Shown here: piece by piece, positions 2,802 to 28,054 of the stretch
Layout: every line of letters begins with the position of its first letter
How positions within the stretch are numbered: the first letter of the stretch is position 1
Virus record (IMG/VR): IMGVR_UViG_3300030388_001250
Location: 1 to 31,546 of that record
Strand: one strand, 5' to 3'
Source: a virus
DNA: 31,546 nucleotides
The notes under the pieces: generated by a model
Told to the model about the DNA's origin: nothing
Seen by the model: the letters and a program-made list of their open reading frames with translations, nothing else
Databases searched by the model: none
Program-made: the position numbers and the translations under genes

Positions 2802-3196
2802 CTAGCGATCAGTACCAATGCGTCATGGACCCTGGCTTCGAGTTCCAGGGAACCTGGCTCTTGGCCAAAGGTCCATTCTTGGACTTGGTGCAGGTCTCTC
2901 GGCTCATGGATCGCTAGAAGTTCGAGCTTGGATTGCGTGGCATGGTAATTAAGAATAAAAGATTTGCCACCAGAACGTAAATAATCGATATGCCAGTTCC
3001 ATTGAAATTTAGAAAGCCCTTTATCCTTAGCATTTGAGCACTTTAATTCGAGCCAAAATGATGTATTTCTAATACACCCGTAAACATCTGGAATACCGTT
3101 GATAGTATTGGATTCTAGGCGAAAAAGAAACCAATCTGGGTAGGGCTTTTGAGCTACCTTGATTCTTTTCCACAGTTTTGACTCATTTATTGACAT
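2798..3196 (-). CDS. VRR-NUC-like PD-(D/E)XK nuclease
   Basis: The protein has the layout of small phage VRR-NUC endonucleases: a Leu-Glu-Ser lead-in, GIPDVYG with Asp37, WLELK with Glu50 and Lys52, then Gln65 in LSKFQWNW. At 132 residues it matches the single-domain family. Members cut structured DNA such as junctions or flaps, or act in repair. The C-terminal part (QEWTFGQEPGSLELEARVHD) has no assigned role. The gene runs against its rightward neighbours, convergent with 2442-2801 and divergent from 3252. No clear Shine-Dalgarno site precedes the ATG. The active-site assignment is from motif reading only. Confidence 0.75.
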   Translation of the reverse strand: MSINESKLWKRIKVAQKPYPDWFLFRLESNTINGIPDVYGCIRNTSFWLELKCSNAKDKGLSKFQWNWHIDYLRSGGKSFILNYHATQSKLELLAIHEPRDLHQVQEWTFGQEPGSLELEARVHDALVLIAS

Positions 3197-3217
3197 TTTG
3201 AGTTAAAATATTATCAT
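3190..3217 (+). promoter_or_regulatory. Sigma70-type promoter
   Basis: Consensus TTGACA (3190-3195), 16-bp spacer, TATCAT (3212-3217). It starts inside the first codons of the divergent nuclease gene and drives the gene at 3252 with a leader of about 28 bases. Confidence 0.75.
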
Positions 3218-3251
3218 AAATGTTAACAAAAGAACATTTTAAGGTGGGTTT

Positions 3252-3542
3252 ATGCGACAAACAATCGATAGAAATGGCAATTTAACAATAGCTCTTTTTG
3301 ATATTGTAGATAAAAAGTGTGAAGATAAATTTATATATTTTTATTTAGGTCTAGATCGAGATGTTAAGAAAATAATAGAAAATGCTTTTTTCAAATGTTA
3401 TACCCAAAAATTGTTAATAAAAGAAGAGCCTGATATTATCCACCATGAAGAAAACGGTGTAACTCATATTGAAGTACACCCAAAAAACATATTAGATAAT
3501 ATAGAGATTATTAAGAAAGTTTTATCAAGTGAAATAAAGTAA
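3252..3542 (+). CDS. Hypothetical protein (96 aa)
   Basis: AAGGTGGG precedes the ATG and a good promoter lies just upstream. The product starts with a beta-like stretch (TIDRNGNLTIALFDIVDK) and continues as a charged alpha/beta fold (FIYFYLGLDRDVKKIIENAF). It is soluble, with two cysteines and no recognised motif. It forms its own transcription unit and ends one base before the end of the convergent terminase small subunit gene. The family is unknown. Confidence 0.65.
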   Translation: MRQTIDRNGNLTIALFDIVDKKCEDKFIYFYLGLDRDVKKIIENAFFKCYTQKLLIKEEPDIIHHEENGVTHIEVHPKNILDNIEIIKKVLSSEIK

Positions 3543-3543
3543 T

Positions 3544-4059
3544 CTAACCTGTACTTTTTTCTTCAATAACTTTTCCTTGTACAATAATAGTGTTTGCGCC
3601 AATTTTATTCTCTAATTCTTTTAATCTGTCCTCTAGCTGTTCCCTGGACATACCCTCTAATGTTGTATGTTGTATTTCTTTTTTATCAATAAATAATCCG
3701 GCTAGTTGGCCTGATCGGTACTCTGAATTAATAGCTGCCGTAAACTGGCCTTTATCTTCTGCGCCATCTCTTAACCTTTCAAAAGTTTTATACCTGGCTA
3801 ATTTATCTTTTTCATATTTTTCAGATTCTTTAGCCAACATATTTTCTAAGGTTCTAGCAATATGTGGATTTGCATTTGGATCTAACATTTTACTGGCCAT
3901 TACTGCTGCCGACCTCTCATTCTTCCCATATCCAGCTTTTTGAGCAGCTTTAGTTTGAGTAATCGTACCCCAATTCTTAACCAACAAAGATAAAAACTTC
4001 TTTTGCTTAGAAGTTAAGTCTTTTTCAGTCCTTAAAGTTACAGATTTATGTGATCCCAT
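3544..4059 (-). CDS. Terminase small subunit-like DNA-binding protein
   Basis: The N-terminal region (LTSKQKKFLSLLVKNWGTITQTKAAQKAGYG, about residues 15-45) is the helix-turn-helix of small terminases, which recognise the packaging site and recruit the large subunit. The middle (NANPHIARTLENMLAKE) and the end (FIDKKEIQHTTLEGMSREQLEDRLKELE) follow the usual oligomerisation and tail pattern. The frame opens 20 codons earlier at 4119, but that extension is hydrophobic and Cys-rich (SSFCIKSCYLTLILYNLL). I start at the ATG at 4059, which lies 6 bases after a TATAAT box, so the message may be leaderless. No large terminase gene is adjacent; it is probably outside the window. Another HTH regulator is the main alternative. 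Confidence 0.75.
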   Translation of the reverse strand: MGSHKSVTLRTEKDLTSKQKKFLSLLVKNWGTITQTKAAQKAGYGKNERSAAVMASKMLDPNANPHIARTLENMLAKESEKYEKDKLARYKTFERLRDGAEDKGQFTAAINSEYRSGQLAGLFIDKKEIQHTTLEGMSREQLEDRLKELENKIGANTIIVQGKVIEEKSTG

Positions 4060-7644: not shown

Positions 7645-8109
7645 GTGGAGACTTATAGAGAAGAAAATAAAAGGTATCAGATAGCCCCTGAAGCCTTTAC
7701 CACTAAACCTCTTTTACCTGAAGAGAGGTTGTGGCGCTCCGTAATAGTCAATGCCCTAGAAGATACACAAATTACTCACGTTGATCGTAAAAGTTCTATT
7801 ACCAAACTTAAAGCCCACAACTGGATCATCAGTAACTGTGGTGATTTTCAAGATATTTGTACCTGGGCCGAGCTTCAACCAGATGTTATCAATACTCATT
7901 ATCGTGGGCTACTTAAAAAAAAAGTAGTTAGGTTTACCGATAAACAGATCCTCTGGTATCAATACGACTTGTTTTCTCAAACTTTAAATGAAATGACTGA
8001 TGATAGGCAGAAAAAAGCGCAAAGACGTAAAATGAAAGACATGAGAGAGCTTATATGCCAAACACCAGGGGAACTACTCTCCACTATTTTCTTGAGCGTT
8101 TTGAGCTGA
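7645..8109 (+). CDS. Hypothetical protein with helical DNA-binding look (154 aa)
   Basis: It opens with GTG at 7645, three bases after the previous stop, with a weak ribosome-binding site, so coupled initiation is likely. The pattern LWRSVIVNALEDT, then AHNWIISNCGDFQDICTWAELQPDVINTHY recalls a family of small phage proteins in which a Trp-x-x-Asp-Phe segment leads into a helix-turn-helix-like Cys-x-x-Ala-x-Leu-x-Pro-Asp helix; I know of no assigned function. A basic C-terminal helix (DDRQKKAQRRKMKDMREL) could contact nucleic acid. Its end overlaps the convergent methyltransferase gene by 36 bases. Confidence 0.65.
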   Translation: METYREENKRYQIAPEAFTTKPLLPEERLWRSVIVNALEDTQITHVDRKSSITKLKAHNWIISNCGDFQDICTWAELQPDVINTHYRGLLKKKVVRFTDKQILWYQYDLFSQTLNEMTDDRQKKAQRRKMKDMRELICQTPGELLSTIFLSVLS

Positions 8110-9099
8110 AACAATAGCGTTACCAATGAACCATGCGATCTGAGGAATTATCGCATTACCTAGTCCTTTGATTCTTCCGACTCGACCTTTGTCCAGTCCA
8201 TAGGAAACCCCATGAGGAACTCCACAAAATTCGGATTCAGTTTGCCACCAGTTCTTCTCGCTTGAGCTTCCAGACAATTCGATGCTTGACTGTTGCCCTT
8301 CAAGCGATACTTGTGTTCGCTGCTGGTCGGTGTCGGATACATCTTCTCTAGATGATGTACTGCGTCCTTCAACTTCACCCCGTATCTCACACCCTTCTTG
8401 TTCTTCCTGGAAAAACTGCCATTGCGGAGATCGACATTCTTCACCACCCCTCCTTCTAGATCGCAAGCTCTCGGTGTCGGATACATCCTCATGGTTTCTG
8501 GGTCTACTTGCTCCCTTAGATTGCTCGGCTTGGTTCTGCCCTTGCGATGACCTTCCTGCAGCTTCTTGGTCCCTTCTGGACTTCTCGGAGGCAAGTGATC
8601 CATTGTGTTCGGAGTAGCCCACAATCCAGATTCTTTTCCTTTGGTGCCATGCACCGATGGATGAAGCTGAAATAACAAATGTCCTTGTGTCGTAACCAAT
8701 ACTCGCCAAGTCCTCAAGGACGGTGTCGAGACCGAGTTTAATGTGTCCACCAACGTTTTCTCCAACAAACCAAGTGGGTTTGCACTCTTGGATAATTCTA
8801 AAAGTATCTGGCCAGAGGTGTCTTGGATCTTCTTCGCCTTTTTGCCTGCCTGCGACACTAAAAGGTTGGCAGGGGTAGGAACAAGTGACGAGATCAATGT
8901 CTCTAGTTCCTGTTCTCTCTTTGATTTGTTCATACGTTAACTCCTTCAAGTCGTTAAAAATTGGAATATTAGGGAAGTTTTTTTGTAATACTCGTTGTGG
9001 ATATTTATCTATCTCACAAAAGGCAACGGTGTTGATACCAAGCTCACGAAAAGCTAATGCCCAACCACCAATACCTGAACATAGGTCGAGATGATTCAT
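8074..9099 (-). CDS. dcm: DNA (cytosine-5-)-methyltransferase
   Basis: A 341-residue C5-methyltransferase that transfers methyl from S-adenosylmethionine to cytosine. Motif I DLCSGIGG is at residues 5-12, motif IV PCQPFS at 76-81 with nucleophile Cys77, motif VI ENV at 114-116, motif VIII QRKRIWIV at 153-160 and motif X GNAIIPQ at 314-320. The frame extends upstream to 9174, but the ATG at 9099 directly precedes motif I and follows the stop of the PP-loop gene. Between VIII and X, where target recognition lies, the protein is unusually hydrophilic and low in complexity, with two VSDT repeats. This stretch and the catalytic core are overlapped by another long frame (8160-8933). Base composition here is GC-richer than the neighbours, suggesting acquisition by transfer. 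Confidence 0.9.
   Translation of the reverse strand: MNHLDLCSGIGGWALAFRELGINTVAFCEIDKYPQRVLQKNFPNIPIFNDLKELTYEQIKERTGTRDIDLVTCSYPCQPFSVAGRQKGEEDPRHLWPDTFRIIQECKPTWFVGENVGGHIKLGLDTVLEDLASIGYDTRTFVISASSIGAWHQRKRIWIVGYSEHNGSLASEKSRRDQEAAGRSSQGQNQAEQSKGASRPRNHEDVSDTESLRSRRRGGEECRSPQWQFFQEEQEGCEIRGEVEGRSTSSREDVSDTDQQRTQVSLEGQQSSIELSGSSSEKNWWQTESEFCGVPHGVSYGLDKGRVGRIKGLGNAIIPQIAWFIGNAIVSAQNAQENSGE
8160..8933 (-). CDS. Nested second-frame protein inside the methyltransferase gene
   Basis: This 257-residue frame lies wholly inside the methyltransferase gene, shifted by one base. It has its own start signal: AAGGAG at 8941-8946, seven bases before the ATG. Its sequence looks like a folded, conserved protein: TWRVL/GHLLFQL, then ESGLWATPNTMDHLPPRSP, NLREQVDPETMRMYPTPRACD, a second MYPTPTSSE, and a C-terminal GGKLNPNFVEFLMGFPMDWT. 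I recognise the (W/Y)PTP repeats and LNPxFVExLMGFPxxWT ending from uncharacterised proteins encoded near or within phage cytosine methyltransferases. The two YPTP motifs coincide at DNA level with the two VSDT motifs of the other frame. The function is unknown; a role beside the methyltransferase is inferred. Confidence 0.65.
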   Translation of the reverse strand: MNKSKREQELETLISSLVPTPANLLVSQAGKKAKKIQDTSGQILLELSKSANPLGLLEKTLVDTLNSVSTPSLRTWRVLVTTQGHLLFQLHPSVHGTKGKESGLWATPNTMDHLPPRSPEGTKKLQEGHRKGRTKPSNLREQVDPETMRMYPTPRACDLEGGVVKNVDLRNGSFSRKNKKGVRYGVKLKDAVHHLEKMYPTPTSSEHKYRLKGNSQASNCLEAQARRTGGKLNPNFVEFLMGFPMDWTKVESEESKD

Positions 9100-9100
9100 A

Positions 9101-9919
9101 TTAGTTCCCACACATACCTTCACATTCATCCATAAAGTCAAATTTAAACTGATCATCACCTTTATTGAAATCAATCTGGTCTATAGGCTCACAACTGTTG
9201 TGTAAAAACATTTTACTTTTCATGTTAATCTTAGCTTTAAATTTATCAGTGTCTCTGATCATATAATCTATCTTGACTACCTCCTCCCATTCTTCTTTGT
9301 TTCTTTTTATTTTGGACCATTCCTCACTAGAATGATAAGGGCAGAAAGTACAAGCACTTCTTGGTGGTTGTGGGTAATTATTTTTTTTCATCCATTCAAA
9401 ACAATGCATGCGTGTAATATCTTTGTCAACCAAGGGGTAGACATTGGTAATGTATTTTAAACGATTAGGCTTCATTCGTTGCATCTCATCAGTAGAAATA
9501 CCCATGATATTCTCTACTCTCCATTCTTTTAAATCTACACGTTGACCTTTACTATAACCCATCAGCTCTCTAGTCTTTTTAACCACTGGTTTAATTTTAT
9601 AATCTGCGGTGCATTGTCTCATTAAAATACCTTTCTTACCTGTATCACTTAGTGTGTAAAAAGGAGCTGTAAAACCTTTATACTCACCTACAGCAGCAGC
9701 CATCACATCTTCCTTAAGATTTCTCCATTGCACTCGATGTAAAGGGTAAGACAGTTGTTTTTCTAACCAGTTTAAATGATCGTAAACTTCTTTAGGCTCT
9801 GCCCCAGTGTCTGCAAAAATAGCCCCATCCACCATTGGTATTTCGCCTTGTTCAATCATCAAGGCTAAGGTAGTGCTTTGTACCCCCGCCCCTAATGATA
9901 GTAGTCTTAATGTTTTCAT
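9101..9919 (-). CDS. PP-loop ATP pyrophosphatase, PAPS reductase-like
   Basis: SLGAGVQST at residues 8-16 is the PP-loop of the adenine nucleotide alpha hydrolase/PAPS reductase superfamily, followed by the FADTG strand end at 35-39. Cys103 (RQCTADYK), Cys190/Cys193 (SACTFCPYH), Cys243 and C-terminal Cys266/Cys270 could bind a metal or iron-sulfur cluster. Phage members are usually labelled PAPS reductase, but true sulfate reduction is unproven; relatives adenylate or thiolate nucleic acids (DndC, TtcA, queuosine enzymes). It sits between DNA polymerase (ATGA overlap) and the cytosine methyltransferase, so a role in DNA or tRNA modification or anti-restriction is a fair inference. Confidence 0.8.
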   Translation of the reverse strand: MKTLRLLSLGAGVQSTTLALMIEQGEIPMVDGAIFADTGAEPKEVYDHLNWLEKQLSYPLHRVQWRNLKEDVMAAAVGEYKGFTAPFYTLSDTGKKGILMRQCTADYKIKPVVKKTRELMGYSKGQRVDLKEWRVENIMGISTDEMQRMKPNRLKYITNVYPLVDKDITRMHCFEWMKKNNYPQPPRSACTFCPYHSSEEWSKIKRNKEEWEEVVKIDYMIRDTDKFKAKINMKSKMFLHNSCEPIDQIDFNKGDDQFKFDFMDECEGMCGN

Positions 9920-20128: not shown

Positions 20129-20470
20129 TCAGTTCCCTAAAGGGTTATCGTTAATTATGTCATAGACTTTACCAATCTCTTTTTCCATCCAACCGGATAA
20201 TTTTTCTTCCGTACGCTTAATTTCAGCATCTAATTTATCCATATTACCGTAGACTTCTTTTAGGGAGTCGTTATTGAATTGAGTTAAGCTTTCGTTTGTG
20301 GTTAATCTGTCGTTTAAGGTACCTGTATCACTACCCGCTACTTTACCTTCCATAGCCACTAAACGTGTGCTTAGGTCTGACATCCACCATACGAACCCAC
20401 CTGCTGCTGGAACTACTGATAAGACTATCGTAAGTATCACTGCTGGTGAAAGCACCAATGTCTTGTTCAT
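20129..20470 (-). CDS. Membrane-anchored coiled-coil protein
   Basis: One N-terminal membrane helix (LSPAVILTIVLSVVPAAGGFVWW) is followed by an extended, mostly helical outer domain (DLSTRLVAMEGKV, then ESLTQFNNDSLKEVYGNMDKL). AGGAG with 7-base spacing marks the ATG at 20470. The first 128 bases lie inside the 3' end of the 500-codon gene in another frame. Placement next to the holin and the topology would fit an inner-membrane spanin-like or other lysis-related role, but no Rz motif is visible. Confidence 0.65.
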   Translation of the reverse strand: MNKTLVLSPAVILTIVLSVVPAAGGFVWWMSDLSTRLVAMEGKVAGSDTGTLNDRLTTNESLTQFNNDSLKEVYGNMDKLDAEIKRTEEKLSGWMEKEIGKVYDIINDNPLGN

Positions 20471-21845
20471 ATATCATCTCCTGTGTTAATACTACTGTTT
20501 CTTGAATTGTAATTGTTTCAGGTATTATTTGCAAATAGACCATACTGGTAATGCTTATTTGCCCCAAGGGCTCAGTGCGGATATCAGATTTTGCAGTTTT
20601 ATCCACAGGTTGTTTAGTAGATTTAACGGTTGTTTTTTCTTCAACTGTTTCTTTTTTTGCACTAGTTTTTTTGCTATTACTTTTTTCTTTACTACTTTTT
20701 TCTTTTTTATCATCGCTTTTCTCTGTTTTATTGTCGGACTCATCTTCCCCTCCGTCTGATAAGTCGCCGCTTTCATTTGCTGCAATCTTTGTTTTTGTCT
20801 TTGGCTCTGTCTTTGTTTCTGGTTCTGGTTCGGCTTCTGGTTCTGGTTCTGGTTCTGCTTCAACAACTTCAATTTCGGGCTCTGGTTCTGATGGTCCTTC
20901 AACGTTAATCTCCTTGATCTCTTCGATAGGTTGCACCTCTGCTATTTCAGGTAAGTCAGAAGGCATCTCTATTCTTATTTCTCTGGTTTGAGGAATGTCG
21001 ATTATATCAGGCATCTCTTGAACTTGCATATTATCGGTTACACTATTCTCAGGCATTTCAACATTCATTTCCATCTCAGGCATATCCATATTTATTTCCA
21101 TAGGCTGCATATCCATTGGCATCTCTATCATCTCCATCTCTGGCATAATTTGTATGTCTGAAATCAAGTCCAAGGTTACTGATGTATCTAACTGTAACCC
21201 ACCTATCATAGTCTCCTGGACTATTTGTTCTTGGGCTTGTTGCTGTACATAATCTTGGTATGTTATAGCAAACTCATAGTTGTCTGTAATGGGAGCTAAC
21301 CAGTTGTTACCTGTATGACTATCCTGTCCGGTTAGTTCAAAGTTAATAGCAACCATCCCTGTTAAGAAGGTATCGTTGATAGATTTAGTAAAGGTGTGGT
21401 GAGTAAAGCCGTCTTCATATATAACACTGGTGCTATGACTAGATACTTCTGTGTTAGTACCATCAGTAAAGCTAATGTTAGTTATAATCTTATCGTGGTT
21501 CTCTTGTGTACAATGTCCGTTAGCATCGTTACCACAACCGTACCCGTGGTAGCTAATGGTATAACTTAAAATTTCTTTGCCTTCTTCTACCGCAGTTAAG
21601 TTAACAAGCTGACTAATAGTAGAGTCTTGTCCTTTGAATCGTATGATTTTTGAGTTGCCTGCATCTGAGTAAGGCCCATCAATCTTGACACCCTTATCAG
21701 ATAGAGTCCATCCAACTATATTATCCTCAAAGTCTGAGTTAGTTAGAAGGTTGCCCGTAGTAGTCTCTGCGCCTGTTGCTTGGTTTAATAACGTCAAACT
21801 TAACAGGCTTGCGACTAGGGTTTTTAATAACATTATTTTGTTCAT
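20343..21845 (-). CDS. Large exported low-complexity protein with lectin-like N-domain
   Basis: A Sec signal peptide (LLKTLVASLLSLTLLNQATGA) is followed by a beta-rich domain that resembles carbohydrate-binding jelly rolls (NLLTNSDFEDNIVGWTLSD; two Cys in YGCGNDANGHC), to about residue 195. Then come Met-Pro-Glu repeats (about 235-275), acidic Pro-Glu runs (about 320-350), a Lys/Ser/Asp-rich stretch (about 365-420) and a folded-looking C-terminus ending VRPKHTFSGYGR. The PE/KT-rich middle recalls TonB and could span the periplasm. It overlaps its upstream neighbour by 107 bases and its downstream neighbour by 128 bases in other frames. Weak ribosome-binding context at 21845. A surface or lysis-stage role is inferred from position beside the holin genes. 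Confidence 0.7.
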   Translation of the reverse strand: MNKIMLLKTLVASLLSLTLLNQATGAETTTGNLLTNSDFEDNIVGWTLSDKGVKIDGPYSDAGNSKIIRFKGQDSTISQLVNLTAVEEGKEILSYTISYHGYGCGNDANGHCTQENHDKIITNISFTDGTNTEVSSHSTSVIYEDGFTHHTFTKSINDTFLTGMVAINFELTGQDSHTGNNWLAPITDNYEFAITYQDYVQQQAQEQIVQETMIGGLQLDTSVTLDLISDIQIMPEMEMIEMPMDMQPMEINMDMPEMEMNVEMPENSVTDNMQVQEMPDIIDIPQTREIRIEMPSDLPEIAEVQPIEEIKEINVEGPSEPEPEIEVVEAEPEPEPEAEPEPETKTEPKTKTKIAANESGDLSDGGEDESDNKTEKSDDKKEKSSKEKSNSKKTSAKKETVEEKTTVKSTKQPVDKTAKSDIRTEPLGQISITSMVYLQIIPETITIQETVVLTQEMIYEQDIGAFTSSDTYDSLISSSSSRWVRMVDVRPKHTFSGYGR

Positions 21846-22272
21846 CTAATATTCCACGTTTACGGTACTCGGCTATAGCTTTATCGCCTATCAAACCATT
21901 GACAGGACAAGGGCTACCTGCCGCTATCATACTCTCAAATACTCTTGGGTCTCTGCACAACATAGCAGTCGCTGAGACTTTCATCCCAAGTTGAGCCAAT
22001 GCTCTACTAAGTTTAATCATTTGACAGTTCTTATCTACCACTTGGATACCAGCAGAGATACCAATGAACCCACCTGATACACCACCTGCTCTAGCTACTA
22101 CACAGATATCAGAGTACGCACCTGAACTTCCCATTGATGGTACGGATGGTGGAGTTACCGGCATATCTTTGTATCGGATATTGGAATCTGCTGCTTTTAC
22201 GCCTGTAGATAAAAATACTACTAACATAGTTATTATTGAGTATATGTATAAAGTTTCTGCCCAATCTTTCAT
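21739..22272 (-). CDS. Exported hypothetical protein (177 aa)
   Basis: AGAGG precedes the ATG at 22272. A signal peptide or anchor (YIYSIITMLVVFLSTGVKA) probably ends at Ala-Ala. The mature part has a Gly-rich segment (RAGGVSGGFIGISAGIQVV) and four cysteines (DICVV, DKNCQ, MLCRD, SPCPV) that could form two disulfides in the periplasm. The C-terminus is basic. Proteins of this pattern stand beside internal virion and lysis genes in marine phages, with no assigned role. Its last 107 bases overlap the start of the 500-codon gene in another frame. Confidence 0.7.
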   Translation of the reverse strand: MKDWAETLYIYSIITMLVVFLSTGVKAADSNIRYKDMPVTPPSVPSMGSSGAYSDICVVARAGGVSGGFIGISAGIQVVDKNCQMIKLSRALAQLGMKVSATAMLCRDPRVFESMIAAGSPCPVNGLIGDKAIAEYRKRGILDEQNNVIKNPSRKPVKFDVIKPSNRRRDYYGQPSN

Positions 22273-22274
22273 AA

Positions 22275-24647
22275 TTAACCTCTAAATAGGGGAAGTCCAA
22301 CTTGTTCCATTCTTGCTAATTGATCTGACTGATTACCGCCCGATTGATTACCTAACGATGCAATCCCTGAACCTTGAGCCTGGGGTGCTTGACCTTGAGG
22401 CTGTGGTGTTGGAGCAGGAGCCGAGGACATTGGCCCTAGTGAATCGAGTGCTTCATCAAGTGGGTCTGGTCTTCTAAGAGGTGCTGTTTCAAGATTAGTA
22501 TCTGTACCTACAGCATCTTCTTCATCAACGGGGTCTCCTTGTTCTTCTGCATTTTTTCTTTTAATAATATCTTTACTATATTCTAATAAGCCTTCATCTA
22601 TGTTTCTATCGAATTTTTCTTGTTGGTCAAAGGTTATTAAACCTTCTGCCGCTAAACCATTAATAACTCTTCTCCAAGCTGTCGCTGTTTTTCTCATGGG
22701 GTTAACTGTAATATCAGCTACGTTACCTGTTTTGTTATAAATTTGTAAAGCCTCGTCTGTCATTTCTTGATAACCTTTTTCAAGAAACTTACTAAATTTT
22801 GGACTTGTAAACAGCCTACTCATAGCCATCGGTGCTAATAATATACCAGCACTAGGGGCACTAAGAACTCCAGTAAAAGCTCCAACGATTGCTCCACCTT
22901 GTGTAAGTTGAATCAACATAGCACCGGGTAGTCTACCTTTTTTATTTAAAGAACCGTATGCAGTTGATAAAGCATTAGCCGCTCTTTGAATACTTTCTAT
23001 TTCACTTTTATTGTAAACTTGTTTCATAGCACTGTAGGCTGAACCATCCTCTTTTCCAAGAGCCCCTACAAAATCTTTGAACTTACCATCATTAATCATC
23101 TTACCAAAGCTACCCGCATCTCTTTCAGAACGAGTAATTATATCTTGAAACAATTGAGCTTTAAGACCTTGACCTATTGCAAGTTTATCTTTTGGTTTAA
23201 TAAGTCCAGTAGTTATACCTTGATCTAATGCCTCCTTTAATTTACCAATTATTTGAGGTTTATCAAATTTTACAAGCATTTTATAAGCGTTAGCCCCTAA
23301 ACCACTGCTTTCATGTTCTTTTAAAATTCTTGCAAGTAAATCGTTGTTAACAAATAGTTTATTACCTTTTTCTGTTAAAGCATCCGCTTCTTTTAAAGCT
23401 GTTTTAATTTTTGCTGGAACGGCTGCATTTGTTAACATGTTATCAACAGTTCCTTTTAATTGTTCAATAGCTTCAAGGTACATTTGTTTATTTTGTGTAT
23501 TCAAGAAAGCAGAACTAGCTAAACCATTTAATTGCCTTTTCATGGTTATGACTTCCTTGTATGTCATTTTGCCTGGACCTCTTGTCTCTGCCTTAGCTAT
23601 AACTTCTCTTATTGTCCTTGCAATACCTTGAGCTTCAGGAGCTAATGGGCCTGTAACACCTAGTAAATCGTCCTCTATTTTTATTAGTGTATTTTCAAGT
23701 GGAGCTAAATTCATCATTCGATCATCCCCACGTCTATTGCTAACTTCGTCAAAATGTTTTTTTATTTGATCGTCAACTTTAGTATATTTTATTTTTTGTA
23801 AATTTCTATACTCCTTATTTTTACCAGCTATAGTATTTATTAAAAGATTCCCAAAATCTTCGCCTTGTGGGTCAACTCTTTTCATAGTATCTAAAACATT
23901 TTTGTTATGAAATGCACCAATTTTTCGTGCATAATCTTCTGCTACAAATTGTGCTCCTTCTTTTGCTTTTACTATGCTTTTTCCACCTAGTAACGAGCTT
24001 TCAGCTACGTTCTCAGCTACGTTTATAGGATAATTGTTATATGCAATACCAGGAGTTATAAAAGAGTCCGCAGCCATTTGTTTTTCAACATCAGAGTATT
24101 TACCTGTGGTGTCTTTTAATATTTCTTTTTTTTGAAATTCAATTGTTTTTTCACCTTCTTCAACTAATTTAAGTTTATCTAATTTTGGTTTTAAAGCTTT
24201 ACCAATAATATCAAAACTTTTAATTGCAATAGGGCCACCAATTAATTCAGCAACTGCCATTGAAGTTCCAGCATTGATAGCTGATTTGACTGGATCAGAA
24301 GTAGGGTCAAAGGTTTCAGAAACTACAGAACCTCCTGCACCACCTACACCACTAAGCCCAGCAGTCTTTGCTAATTGCATTAAAAAAGGTTTTGCAAAAT
24401 AACCTGCACGAGCTAACAACGGTAGTTGTCCACCTGGCACGAAAGCAAGGCCTACCCCACCTAAAACTTCTAATGCGGTTCTTCTCCAATCATTACCACC
24501 TACAAATTTATCAGCTTCTTTTTGAGCTTGAGCATCTTGATATTCATCAGATTTAAGAAAATTTTTAATCTTACCTAATTCTTCTTGAGTAGGCTTATCA
24601 CCTTGTGTTTTAAATCTACCATGTCCTTTTATAAATACTTCGCCCAT
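22275..24647 (-). CDS. Internal virion-like protein (790 aa)
   Basis: AAGGAGTAAAAC marks the start. It is a large, helical, Ala/Lys-rich protein with several Gly/Ala hydrophobic stretches (ALEVLGGVGLAFVPGG, GLSGVGGAGGSVVS, LTQGGAIVGAFTGVLSAP). A Pro/Gln-rich linker near the C-terminus (APAPTPQPQGQAPQAQG) leads to a short conserved-looking tail (LARMEQVGLPLFRG). Size, composition and position after smaller virion proteins fit the ejected internal proteins of podoviruses, which form a channel across the host envelope. I see no lysozyme or transglycosylase motif. It may work with the 344- and 395-residue proteins encoded upstream. Confidence 0.7.
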   Translation of the reverse strand: MGEVFIKGHGRFKTQGDKPTQEELGKIKNFLKSDEYQDAQAQKEADKFVGGNDWRRTALEVLGGVGLAFVPGGQLPLLARAGYFAKPFLMQLAKTAGLSGVGGAGGSVVSETFDPTSDPVKSAINAGTSMAVAELIGGPIAIKSFDIIGKALKPKLDKLKLVEEGEKTIEFQKKEILKDTTGKYSDVEKQMAADSFITPGIAYNNYPINVAENVAESSLLGGKSIVKAKEGAQFVAEDYARKIGAFHNKNVLDTMKRVDPQGEDFGNLLINTIAGKNKEYRNLQKIKYTKVDDQIKKHFDEVSNRRGDDRMMNLAPLENTLIKIEDDLLGVTGPLAPEAQGIARTIREVIAKAETRGPGKMTYKEVITMKRQLNGLASSAFLNTQNKQMYLEAIEQLKGTVDNMLTNAAVPAKIKTALKEADALTEKGNKLFVNNDLLARILKEHESSGLGANAYKMLVKFDKPQIIGKLKEALDQGITTGLIKPKDKLAIGQGLKAQLFQDIITRSERDAGSFGKMINDGKFKDFVGALGKEDGSAYSAMKQVYNKSEIESIQRAANALSTAYGSLNKKGRLPGAMLIQLTQGGAIVGAFTGVLSAPSAGILLAPMAMSRLFTSPKFSKFLEKGYQEMTDEALQIYNKTGNVADITVNPMRKTATAWRRVINGLAAEGLITFDQQEKFDRNIDEGLLEYSKDIIKRKNAEEQGDPVDEEDAVGTDTNLETAPLRRPDPLDEALDSLGPMSSAPAPTPQPQGQAPQAQGSGIASLGNQSGGNQSDQLARMEQVGLPLFRG

Positions 24648-24650
24648 GTT

Positions 24651-25838
24651 TTACTCCTTAATATCTTTTAAATCAATAATTTCAATACCTTCTTTCTTAG
24701 CGTCTTTCTCATCTTGCTCCATAATCGCAAGGTCGTCTCTAACACCAGGACTTGCAAATTCTGCAAAAGGAGAGATATCAAAAGAACGAATGCCGGCTAA
24801 TTGATCTGTTATAGAGTTTTCAAAACCTTTGTAAGATTTAATGTACACATCGTTACCCTTTTTAGCAACCGCTCTTGCTCTAACTAAAAAGTTTACTAAA
24901 TCTTGTTCAGTAGAGAAGCTTCCTTCGTTAAACGCTTTTGCTAATCTTTCCGCCTCTGCCGCAGAAACCGCAGCACCAGATAATTCTTTGATTTTTAAGT
25001 TTTTCATATCTTGCAAGATACCTCTAATTTCTTTAGCATCAGCATCAAAAACACCTTCCATATAACCAGAGCCAAGCGGCCCTACACCAGGGATAGCTTC
25101 TCCATTCTTAACATATTTTTCTATCTTATTTTCTAATTGAGTTAAAGTAGATAACCAATTTACTCTGGCAGGTTTTAAAATATCTTTGCTAGCTTTTGGT
25201 AAAATATCTTTAGAGAAACTTTCAGTAATATTTGGAGCATCAGCTAATTGATTTCTTGTAACGCCATCGGCTGATACAACTGTTTTTATTTTTACAAAAC
25301 CTTTGCTGTCAACAGGTATACCATCAAGTCCAGAAACTTTTAATTGACGAGCTTGTTCCAATGATACTATTTGTTCACTACCTTTAGCCGCAGCATCAGC
25401 TTCTACTTTACCAAGCTTTCTAGCTTCTAAATCAGATTTATTTATTGCAGCAATAGCTGTTGGTATTTGAGCCATACCTAAACCTAGCGCTCTTAATGTA
25501 CCTGCCCCTTTACCTTCACCCGCACGTTGCTCGCCAGTTAATAAAGCTGCAGCGATTGGAGCTAGATATGTTTGTAATTTTTGGTTTCTTGTCAGACCAC
25601 CCGTGTTGTTATCTAGACTTAATAACTTAGATATACCTTCAGTAAAAGATTTAGGTTCCGTAGATTCTACTTCAGGTTCTACTTTAGGCTCTGTTTTTTC
25701 TATGTTTAACTCTTTTTCGAGTTCTTCATCCGATATATCTAAGTTAGCTTCTGCCACACCACCCTTTTGAAAACCTGAAGGCTTTTGTGACTCAAGGTAC
25801 TTTTGTCTAAACATTTTTCTACTTAAAATTTTATTCAT
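24651..25838 (-). CDS. Internal virion-like protein (395 aa)
   Basis: An N-terminal basic segment (LSRKMFRQKYLESQKPSGFQ) and a Gly-Gly turn are followed by an acidic Glu/Pro linker (EKTEPKVEPEVESTEPKS). A long helical body includes one hydrophobic stretch (YLAPIAAALLTGEQ). The order N-terminal KYLESQKPSGFQKGGV is seen in small peptides at the head of marine phage virion proteins. The gene lies 3 bases from its neighbours on both sides, within one virion operon. Function as an internal or ejection protein is inferred from context. Confidence 0.6.
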   Translation of the reverse strand: MNKILSRKMFRQKYLESQKPSGFQKGGVAEANLDISDEELEKELNIEKTEPKVEPEVESTEPKSFTEGISKLLSLDNNTGGLTRNQKLQTYLAPIAAALLTGEQRAGEGKGAGTLRALGLGMAQIPTAIAAINKSDLEARKLGKVEADAAAKGSEQIVSLEQARQLKVSGLDGIPVDSKGFVKIKTVVSADGVTRNQLADAPNITESFSKDILPKASKDILKPARVNWLSTLTQLENKIEKYVKNGEAIPGVGPLGSGYMEGVFDADAKEIRGILQDMKNLKIKELSGAAVSAAEAERLAKAFNEGSFSTEQDLVNFLVRARAVAKKGNDVYIKSYKGFENSITDQLAGIRSFDISPFAEFASPGVRDDLAIMEQDEKDAKKEGIEIIDLKDIKE

Positions 25839-25840
25839 AA

Positions 25841-26875
25841 TTAAGAACCTAAGTAAGCTGTGTATGCAGTTAACCCTGTGCCGAGCGCCTGTGACAATGG
25901 GTTAGCTTGTGGTGCTCGTGGAGCTGTTGTAATTGAACTTAGAGTAGTAGGTAATGCTGTCATGATACCTTTTTCAAATTCTGCTCTAGCGTAAGGGTCT
26001 GCTATAACTTGTTCTCTAGTTTTTCTATCTGCATCCAATTGAGCTTGAGCAATGCCTCGTTGAGTCTGCCCCATTTGAGCTAAGTTAGTAGTGTCTACTC
26101 CCGCCATAGTTTGTTGTTGTCTACCAAGACTTGCTAACTGTTGAGCAGTATAGCCTTGTGTTTGAGCAGCAAGTTGTTGTTGGTTTTGAGCGGCTGTAAG
26201 TGCTTGTCCGTAATTTTGTTGTTGTGCTAGCCCTACTTTTTCTAAAGCACGACCACCTAACTCTGCTCTTTGTACACCTTCTCTACCACCACCAAAAGCA
26301 CCAGCGCTAACAGCGTCTGATGATAGTTGATTTTGTTGTATACCGGCTTGTCTAGTAATCTCATCAATCACAAAACTGTTCATAGGGTTTAAATACTGTG
26401 AAATGTTTGGAGCCTCTAACGCTGTTTGTGATGCACCTTGTGATGCAGCAATTGCTTGATTAGTAGTATTTTGACCTACACCTAATTGACTAATCCCTCT
26501 ATCAAAAGCAAGTTGTTCCATTGTTCCGGGAGTCGCTATTTGATAAGCAGGTATGTCTCTAGGTTGTTGTGCCAATGCGGTTGTACGATCAAACAAGGCA
26601 AGTTTTCTTGCTTCAATTTCTGGAGCCTCACGAGAAAAATTAGTTGTGACATCGGACGGAGAACTACCCCCACCCCCACCACCGAAGTATTGTGGTAAAC
26701 CTGTTTCATCATTTACAGTGCCACACCCACCATGAGCAATAAGTAACTTTCTTTCGTAGTCATTAATATGGGATAAATGCACATCACCATTCTTACCGTG
26801 ATCCGTGATATCAGAATAGAGTTTATTGAATAACTCTACCTTCTCTTTCATACTTAATTGTTTTAAATCTATCAT
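25841..26875 (-). CDS. Gln/Ala-rich virion protein (344 aa)
   Basis: GAAGGAATT precedes an ATGA overlap with the GNAT-like gene. The N-terminal 55 residues (MKEKVELFNKLYSDI, NDYERKLLIAHGG) form a small domain. A run of six glycines follows, then a long low-complexity helical region very rich in Gln, Ala and Thr (QQQLAAQTQGYTAQQLASLG) with FGGGREG in the middle. The C-terminus has a hydrophobic segment (LSQALGTGLTAYTAYLGS). Composition and position suggest an internal virion or tail-associated protein that unfolds for ejection. The family is not named. Confidence 0.6.
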   Translation of the reverse strand: MIDLKQLSMKEKVELFNKLYSDITDHGKNGDVHLSHINDYERKLLIAHGGCGTVNDETGLPQYFGGGGGGSSPSDVTTNFSREAPEIEARKLALFDRTTALAQQPRDIPAYQIATPGTMEQLAFDRGISQLGVGQNTTNQAIAASQGASQTALEAPNISQYLNPMNSFVIDEITRQAGIQQNQLSSDAVSAGAFGGGREGVQRAELGGRALEKVGLAQQQNYGQALTAAQNQQQLAAQTQGYTAQQLASLGRQQQTMAGVDTTNLAQMGQTQRGIAQAQLDADRKTREQVIADPYARAEFEKGIMTALPTTLSSITTAPRAPQANPLSQALGTGLTAYTAYLGS

Positions 26876-27285
26876 AATTCCTTCTCTAGTTGTACATGCG
26901 TTTTTTCGTACCCTTTGGTTTTCATTAGCTTACTCCAACCAGGTCTTGCAAATAACTCCATTTTTTTACAACCTTTGCCTTTAGCCCATGTTTCTAAATC
27001 TTTAACATGGTGCTGCCATTTATGCATATCTCTACCGGTTACAATTCTTGCATCACAAACTTTATAGTTTGGGTAAATCCTTAACTCCGTTACAACGGTT
27101 GCAAGAACTTCATCGTTTTCACCAAGAACCAGCCAAAGTTGCATAGCCCCTTGTTTACATAAAGCTTTGATATCTTCGGCATCAAACGCTCCGTTGGTAT
27201 CACATGCAAGTTGTACTAAATCTCTTGCCAAAGGCCAAACATTTTCTATCTCAAACTTCTTAAAGTTAATAAATTTAGTTTGCAT
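26872..27285 (-). CDS. GNAT-like protein in the virion operon
   Basis: A 137-residue protein with the outline of an N-acetyltransferase fold: WLVLGENDEVLATVVTELRIYP as the beta2-beta4 part, MHKWQHHVKDLETWAKGKGCKKMELFARPGWSKLMKTKGYEKTHVQLEKEL as the later helix and strands with a typical GWSKLMKTKGY end. The classic acetyl-CoA loop (Q/RxxGxG/A) is not clear. Small GNAT-like proteins occur among podovirus internal virion genes (T7 gp13 is similar in size and outline), so it may be structural and not an enzyme. It overlaps the upstream gene by 11 bases. Confidence 0.6.
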   Translation of the reverse strand: MQTKFINFKKFEIENVWPLARDLVQLACDTNGAFDAEDIKALCKQGAMQLWLVLGENDEVLATVVTELRIYPNYKVCDARIVTGRDMHKWQHHVKDLETWAKGKGCKKMELFARPGWSKLMKTKGYEKTHVQLEKEL

Positions 27286-28054
27286 TCACTAGATCGTGTA
27301 TGCGTTTCATTTGATCTTGTTGGTTGTAAAAAAAGGTAGCTCCTTTCTTTCTCATTTCTTTCATGTCTTTTGGATCAGCTCCAGCCATAATGCCAGCTCC
27401 AAGTATTGCATCAGCACGAGATACAAATTCACCATCAGCTAGTTGCGCCAACATAGTGTCTTCATCTTTGTCACCTACACCTGTGCCATCTTCTACATAA
27501 CCTTCTGCTCTGACATAATTGTTTGAATCTTTTTCGTCATGTTCCATTTTACTCGGTAAGTAATTAATACCCCCCTCAGCATAATGTGGGATAGCATTAA
27601 CAATACCACCTTTGTTGTATGCAAATTGACCCGTTGGATTTGCTCCGTACTGAAAAAGGTTATCTGGGGCAGTTCTTGCCACTTCACCCATTTCGTAACC
27701 TTGAGGTTTTAAATTTTCTCTTGCAAGAGCGTCTTCATAATCACCTTGAGAATAAGTAGGCTTGGGTTGTGTTGGGTCAGGCATAGAACCTACACCTACA
27801 CCAGTCCCTACTGTTGAACCTATCGCAATATTAGTCCCGCCTTGAAAACCTTTCCCAAGATTTTGTAACAATGTATTTGATGCAGCGTCTTTACCAGCGC
27901 CTACAGCCAGGTTTCCACCAAGTTTACCTAACCCAAAAGATGTTCCACCACCTACGATTCCAGCAAACAATGAGTTACGGGTTGAAGCCCCTGACGCTTT
28001 AGCGGAAAGAAAACTAATTCCACCTGATAAAAGTGCTAATGTCAATGGATCCAT
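27275..28054 (-). CDS. Gly-rich structural protein (259 aa)
   Basis: AGGAG precedes the ATG at 28054. The N-terminal 90 residues are Gly/Ala/Ser-rich and weakly hydrophobic (LLSGGISFLSAKASGAS, GGGTSFGLGKLGGNLAVGAG). The C-terminal part carries a segment common to marine phage virion proteins: DEDTMLAQLADGEFVSRADAILGAG, then KKGATFFYNQQDQMKRIHDLV. The same ADGEFV-type motif appears near the ends of tape-measure and internal proteins in many phages. A structural role is likely; the exact role is unknown. Confidence 0.65.
   Translation of the reverse strand: MDPLTLALLSGGISFLSAKASGASTRNSLFAGIVGGGTSFGLGKLGGNLAVGAGKDAASNTLLQNLGKGFQGGTNIAIGSTVGTGVGVGSMPDPTQPKPTYSQGDYEDALARENLKPQGYEMGEVARTAPDNLFQYGANPTGQFAYNKGGIVNAIPHYAEGGINYLPSKMEHDEKDSNNYVRAEGYVEDGTGVGDKDEDTMLAQLADGEFVSRADAILGAGIMAGADPKDMKEMRKKGATFFYNQQDQMKRIHDLVNAN

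Follow-up and report, generated by a model that had tools for sequence, protein, structure and literature searches.

M.AquI and M.EcoHK31I are, to our knowledge, the known C5-cytosine DNA methyltransferases that consist of two polypeptides. In literature from 1995, the small-chain gene of M.EcoHK31I is reportedly nested within the large-chain gene in another reading frame. Motifs I-VIII and X of M.EcoHK31I have been assigned to the large chain together with a predicted target-recognition domain (TRD), and motif IX to the small chain (PMC3404938). Here we analyzed a 31,546-base virus record from IMG/VR, hereafter the window, in which a cytosine methyltransferase gene (alpha) contains a second long open frame (beta) that an earlier, sequence-only reading had put forward as a nested gene. 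Our results make it very probable that the locus encodes a split C5-cytosine DNA methyltransferase, with alpha and beta as its two subunits and one stretch of DNA read in two frames.

Layout of the locus

Alpha runs on the minus strand from an ATG at 9099 to a stop at 8074, and beta lies wholly inside it, in frame +1 to alpha, where it covers alpha residues 56-312. The features of the locus, with the evidence for each in parentheses, are as follows.

8074-9099, minus strand: alpha, C5-cytosine DNA methyltransferase catalytic chain, 341 aa, motifs I-VIII and X (PF00145, phrog_363, AF2 model)
8605-9099, minus strand: alpha residues 1-165, catalytic domain, motifs I-VIII (alignment to M.HhaI, pLDDT, alpha dN/dS 0.08-0.20)
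8248-8604, minus strand: alpha residues 166-284, translated spacer, neutral in the alpha frame (dN/dS, pLDDT)
8086-8184, minus strand: alpha motif X region, RIKGLGNAIIPQIAWFIGNAI (alpha dN/dS 0.13 after the overlap; modelled helices)
8941-8946, minus strand: Shine-Dalgarno site of beta, AAGGAG, within alpha codons (sequence; counts of Shine-Dalgarno-like sites)
8160-8933, minus strand: beta, 257 aa with an ATG start, putative target-recognition/motif IX chain (phrog_1008, shuffles, dN/dS, alpha-retrieved loci)
8625-8933, minus strand: beta residues 1-103, overprinted on the alpha catalytic core, including TWRVLVTTQGHLLFQL (conserved in A3; dN/dS)
8247-8624, minus strand: beta residues 104-229, (W/Y)PTP region, putative TRD (homologous segment in Mycobacterium phage IrishSherpFalk)
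8190-8243, minus strand: beta motif IX, KLNPNFVEFLMGFPMDWT (spacing as in the one-chain LTPRECWRLQGFPD; pattern counts)
8473-8484, with a second copy at 8329-8340, minus strand: 12-mer GGTGTCGGATAC, read as VSDT in alpha and YPTP in beta (sequence)

The AAGGAG that the sequence-only reading had placed ahead of the beta ATG is visible in the sequence. Directly upstream of the methyltransferase lies a phosphoadenosine phosphosulfate reductase-like gene (9101-9919, minus strand; phrog_424, E 1.4e-48), and such a gene also adjoins the methyltransferase of phage C72C1 (L085). Elsewhere in the window, five long ORFs of 259-790 aa (20346-28054, minus strand) are without a PHROG match at 1e-5, which suggests poorly sampled proteins, possibly of the virion.

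Conservation and rearrangement of the nested frame

We searched IMG/VR, GTDB genomes and phage records for relatives of beta. Beta was located at +1 of the alpha frame in 239 of the 243 loci found with beta; three of the exceptions (L134, L199 and L228) are rearranged or frame-broken copies, and the fourth (L081) corresponds to the window, which is apparently stored on the strand opposite to the one scanned. A second scan used the alpha alignment alone, to avoid selecting on beta, and returned 77 new loci down to ~34% identity, all with beta at +1, at full length in 75 and cut by contig ends in the other two. The same nested arrangement occurs in E. coli prophages and in phages K-02, PMG1 and KPN U2874. 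Chance-level stops in the nested frame of homologues, which the sequence-only reading had named as grounds for giving up the gene, are not what these two samples contain, since the frame is open at +1 in 239 of 243 and 77 of 77 loci. As for independent homologues of beta, on which the same reading also meant to judge it, no non-nested full-length copy was found among the loci examined, though rearranged relatives with the C-terminal part of beta do exist (see below).

Among 136 beta starts, ATG was used in 110, TTG in 15 and GTG in 11, and a Shine-Dalgarno-like site was present upstream of 68% of them compared to 3.1% of control windows taken within the upstream alpha gene. The beta frame runs past the alpha stop in 11 of 136 non-redundant loci, including L040, L062, L065 and L071. 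In an uncultured marine phage record (L083, KT997847, 2225-3168), the alpha frame is broken, reflecting either a sequencing error or a decayed copy.

Some relatives are built differently. In gp71 of Mycobacterium phage IrishSherpFalk (L321), the region equivalent to beta residues 103-241 is read in the alpha frame and is flanked by motifs VIII and X (E ~1e-16). At 1538-2068 of that locus a segment resembling the beta N-terminus is kept in the +1 frame (66 bits) while the recognition segment is in the alpha frame, which suggests that segments can change frame during evolution. A Bacillota MAG (L199) has a complete beta fused to motif X, and in Mycobacterium and Gordonia phages (L326, L327 and L331) the second chain comprises the C-terminal part of beta plus motif X. 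These rearranged relatives tie beta to the methyltransferase enzyme.

Programmed ribosomal frameshifting would offer another route to the +1 frame, with ribosomes entering it from alpha to make a fused alpha-N/beta-C protein. Phage methyltransferases are among the genes reported with frameshifts in the PRFect paper (PMC10885494), and motif X is carried in the +1 frame in some relatives (L327 and L199). However, the beta start codon is conserved and its Shine-Dalgarno-like sites are far above background, and the standard beta stops before motif X, such that a shifted product would be without this motif. We therefore regard frameshifting as very unlikely.

Domain content of the two chains

Alpha matched PF00145 over residues 2-330 (E 9.4e-42) and phrog_363 (E 1.2e-77), and the five C5-methyltransferase motifs that the sequence-only reading had recognized are all present, namely DLCSGIGG (I), SYPCQPFS (IV), ENV (VI), a QRKR motif (VIII) and GNAIIPQ (X), with the motif residues invariant in A4. 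The alpha profile aligned to residues 8-171 only of M.HhaI. Structure models were generated from input in which rows from annotated phage records were left out, and the AF2 model of alpha was an HhaI-like catalytic domain (Foldseek match to M.HhaI, E 4e-15) with pLDDT >90 in most blocks of that domain. Residues 168-278 had pLDDT <50 and are predicted to be disordered, and helices were modelled at 306-314 and 319-339 in the motif X region. Unlike a one-chain enzyme, alpha does not combine its catalytic motifs with a TRD and motif IX.

Beta belongs to protein family phrog_1008 (E 6e-29), so that the profile search proposed in the sequence-only reading did return a match, while beta had no significant hit in Pfam or NCBIfam and no beta member matched PF00145. 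The beta profile had chance matches only when compared with the sequences of solved structures, and the AF2 model of beta, which was moderate (pLDDT 69.6, pTM 0.40), matched nothing in the PDB below E 0.3 using Foldseek. Because of this lack of a structural match, the assignment of the TRD to beta is based on sequence position and the rearranged relatives and not on fold. The motif IX pattern was detected in 214 of 215 beta chains and in 0 of 215 alpha chains, in which it was sought after residue 150. Its start lies at a median of 140 nt before the alpha stop, and 147-177 nt before the gene end in one-chain enzymes (n = 5); KLNPNFVEFLMGFP in the window and the one-chain KLTPRECWRLQGFP have equal spacing. 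Position and motif content thus point to beta being, most likely, the target-recognition/motif IX subunit.

Beta could also be a real protein with an unrelated role, e.g., an anti-restriction or regulatory effector, that became overprinted by chance, which would agree with the lack of any match to the DNA-methylase model among beta members and with a predicted fold that resembles nothing solved. This would leave alpha without a TRD and motif IX, whereas beta supplies motif IX at the position where it is expected, and in both one-chain and fused relatives this segment is part of a methyltransferase. We consider an unrelated role very unlikely, and of the possibilities raised by the sequence-only reading, i.e., a partner, a specificity factor or an unrelated effector, the evidence favors the partner or specificity roles and disfavors the last.

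Selection in the two frames

Synonymous codons were shuffled such that one protein was preserved and the other was scored. When alpha was preserved, beta scores fell from a median of 205 bits to 68 bits, as determined with a profile built from distant bacterial loci only, and the reciprocal shuffle, with beta preserved, decreased the alpha score from 219 to 54. In both directions, no shuffle reached the real score at any of the 74 loci. With the alpha protein and codon usage fixed, shuffled genes carried ~4.5 stops in the beta frame, a number that is descriptive only since the cores were drawn from open frames and are thus subject to ascertainment bias; the HMM-score shuffle, the dN/dS analysis and the alpha-retrieved sample are independent of this bias.

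For dN/dS, we took sequence pairs with 70-97% nucleotide identity and sorted the substitutions according to what each one changes in the two frames; estimates were pooled over 13 sequence clusters with bootstrapping over clusters (ranges in parentheses). In the alpha frame, dN/dS was 0.08 before the overlap, 0.20 in the core (motifs II-VIII), 0.93 (0.78-1.15) in residues 166-284 and 0.13 at motif X. In frame +1, it was 0.75 before beta, 0.41 (0.36-0.48) over the alpha core, 0.21 (0.16-0.29) in the spacer zone and 0.83 after the beta stop, so the nested frame is at ~0.2-0.4 inside the ORF and ~0.8 outside in the comparison of homologues that the sequence-only reading had called for. The third frame was at ~1-1.5 throughout. 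Selection thus switches frame along the gene, such that each chain owns a different half of the shared DNA.

A conserved protein does cast a conserved shadow in other frames, and shuffled genes still score ~68 bits, but the idea that the nested frame is an untranslated by-product of methyltransferase conservation is contradicted by a real score ~3 times that of the shuffles, by dN/dS that switches frame at the beta boundaries and by the strongest constraint on beta falling where alpha is neutral, and we give it next to no credence. Both frames are under separate constraint as measured on the sequences, which amounts to dual coding. The proposal that the 257-codon frame is a real gene has therefore held up against its match to phrog_1008, its presence in 77 of 77 alpha-retrieved loci, the shuffles in 74 of 74 loci and dN/dS. 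The remark that low complexity in alpha coincides exactly with the part in which the nested frame looks most protein-like was also accurate, with dN/dS of 0.93 for alpha vs. 0.21 for beta. The shared bases of the VSDT and YPTP segments had been taken to indicate co-evolution of two functional readings. The segments are indeed the same 12-mers in two copies, but only PTP in beta is constrained and VSDT in alpha is neutral (dN/dS ~1), so co-evolution does not apply there; the PTP motifs conserved in beta are passively read as VSDT repeats in alpha.

A probable split enzyme encoded by one stretch of DNA

A split C5-methyltransferase is the most likely interpretation because alpha has no motif IX and a neutral middle, beta has motif IX, and one-chain and fused relatives exist. 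Alpha would contribute motif X and the domain for AdoMet binding and catalysis (motifs I-VIII), and beta the target-recognition domain and motif IX. Translation of beta would start separately, at an ATG with a Shine-Dalgarno site of its own within alpha, with both chains made from one message. Opposite the recognition part of beta, alpha would be a flexible spacer that must stay free of stops to reach motif X, and opposite the catalytic core of alpha, beta would carry an overprinted N-terminal region. Dual coding, separate selection in each frame, the partition of motifs and the conservation of the start site can be read from the sequences themselves; from these we infer that the two chains would form a complex that methylates phage or host DNA at a specific site. 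Phage methyltransferases usually protect phage DNA from host restriction, and shielding phage DNA in this way would be the likeliest role of the pair.

We slightly favor a broader view in which these loci represent a widespread class of C5-methyltransferases that arose by reciprocal overprinting, with a one-chain enzyme losing frame on both sides of its recognition segment, which is now read in +1 from an internal start. If so, the beta N-terminal extension was overprinted on the catalytic core, while the catalytic chain reads the recognition DNA as neutral spacer, and recognition modules could change without altering the catalytic chain, with both chains still produced from one message. Fully nested genes of ~250 codons in which each frame is functional are rare and usually have one genome behind them; here, the support for dual coding comes from hundreds of loci in phages and bacteria, and selection passes cleanly between the frames.

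The two-frame layout is usually missed or mis-annotated, and a nested split arrangement would account for the many phage 'DNA methyltransferases' that seem degenerate or are listed as a hypothetical protein. If both chains are needed, cloning or assays based only on the annotated frame of such an enzyme would not succeed. In the prophage of E. coli ECCTRSRTH03 (L334), the alpha frame is open throughout 2833-4044, and RefSeq has two 'incomplete' pseudogene fragments (2878-3478 and 3586-4047) that omit the spacer and the nested beta.

Comparison with known enzymes

The principle of a split enzyme is already known, and what is new is the breadth of the arrangement, the frame-by-frame evidence for selection and the revised domain assignment. 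A literature search, which covered few subscription journals, found no paper on a phage-wide nested arrangement. Overlapping genes with both frames annotated as DNA cytosine methyltransferase occur in Paenibacillus larvae phages, and a term search of the report on these phages (PMC6070908) found no passage that addresses the overlap or the roles of the subunits. The 'Mte8-like' name in PMG1 was dropped as a link to EcoHK31I, as a name alone is unverifiable.

Compared to the one-chain enzymes M.HhaI and M.HaeIII, alpha has an HhaI-like catalytic domain, but the TRD and motif IX lie outside alpha. M.AquI (CYCGRG) is similarly split between motifs VIII and IX and has a second chain with motif IX, but its small chain also carries motif X, which stays in alpha in the window; L199, L326, L327 and L331 are AquI-like in having motifs IX and X in the second chain. 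The closest likeness in motif partition is to M.EcoHK31I (YGGCCR), compared here with alpha and beta by its published description, in which the large chain has motifs I-VIII and X and the small chain motif IX, both of which apply to alpha and beta. The published TRD of M.EcoHK31I is in the large chain, whereas here the TRD-like segment belongs to beta, and the corresponding part of alpha evolves neutrally and is predicted to be disordered; if our reading is true, the published placement of the M.EcoHK31I recognition domain would have to be revised.
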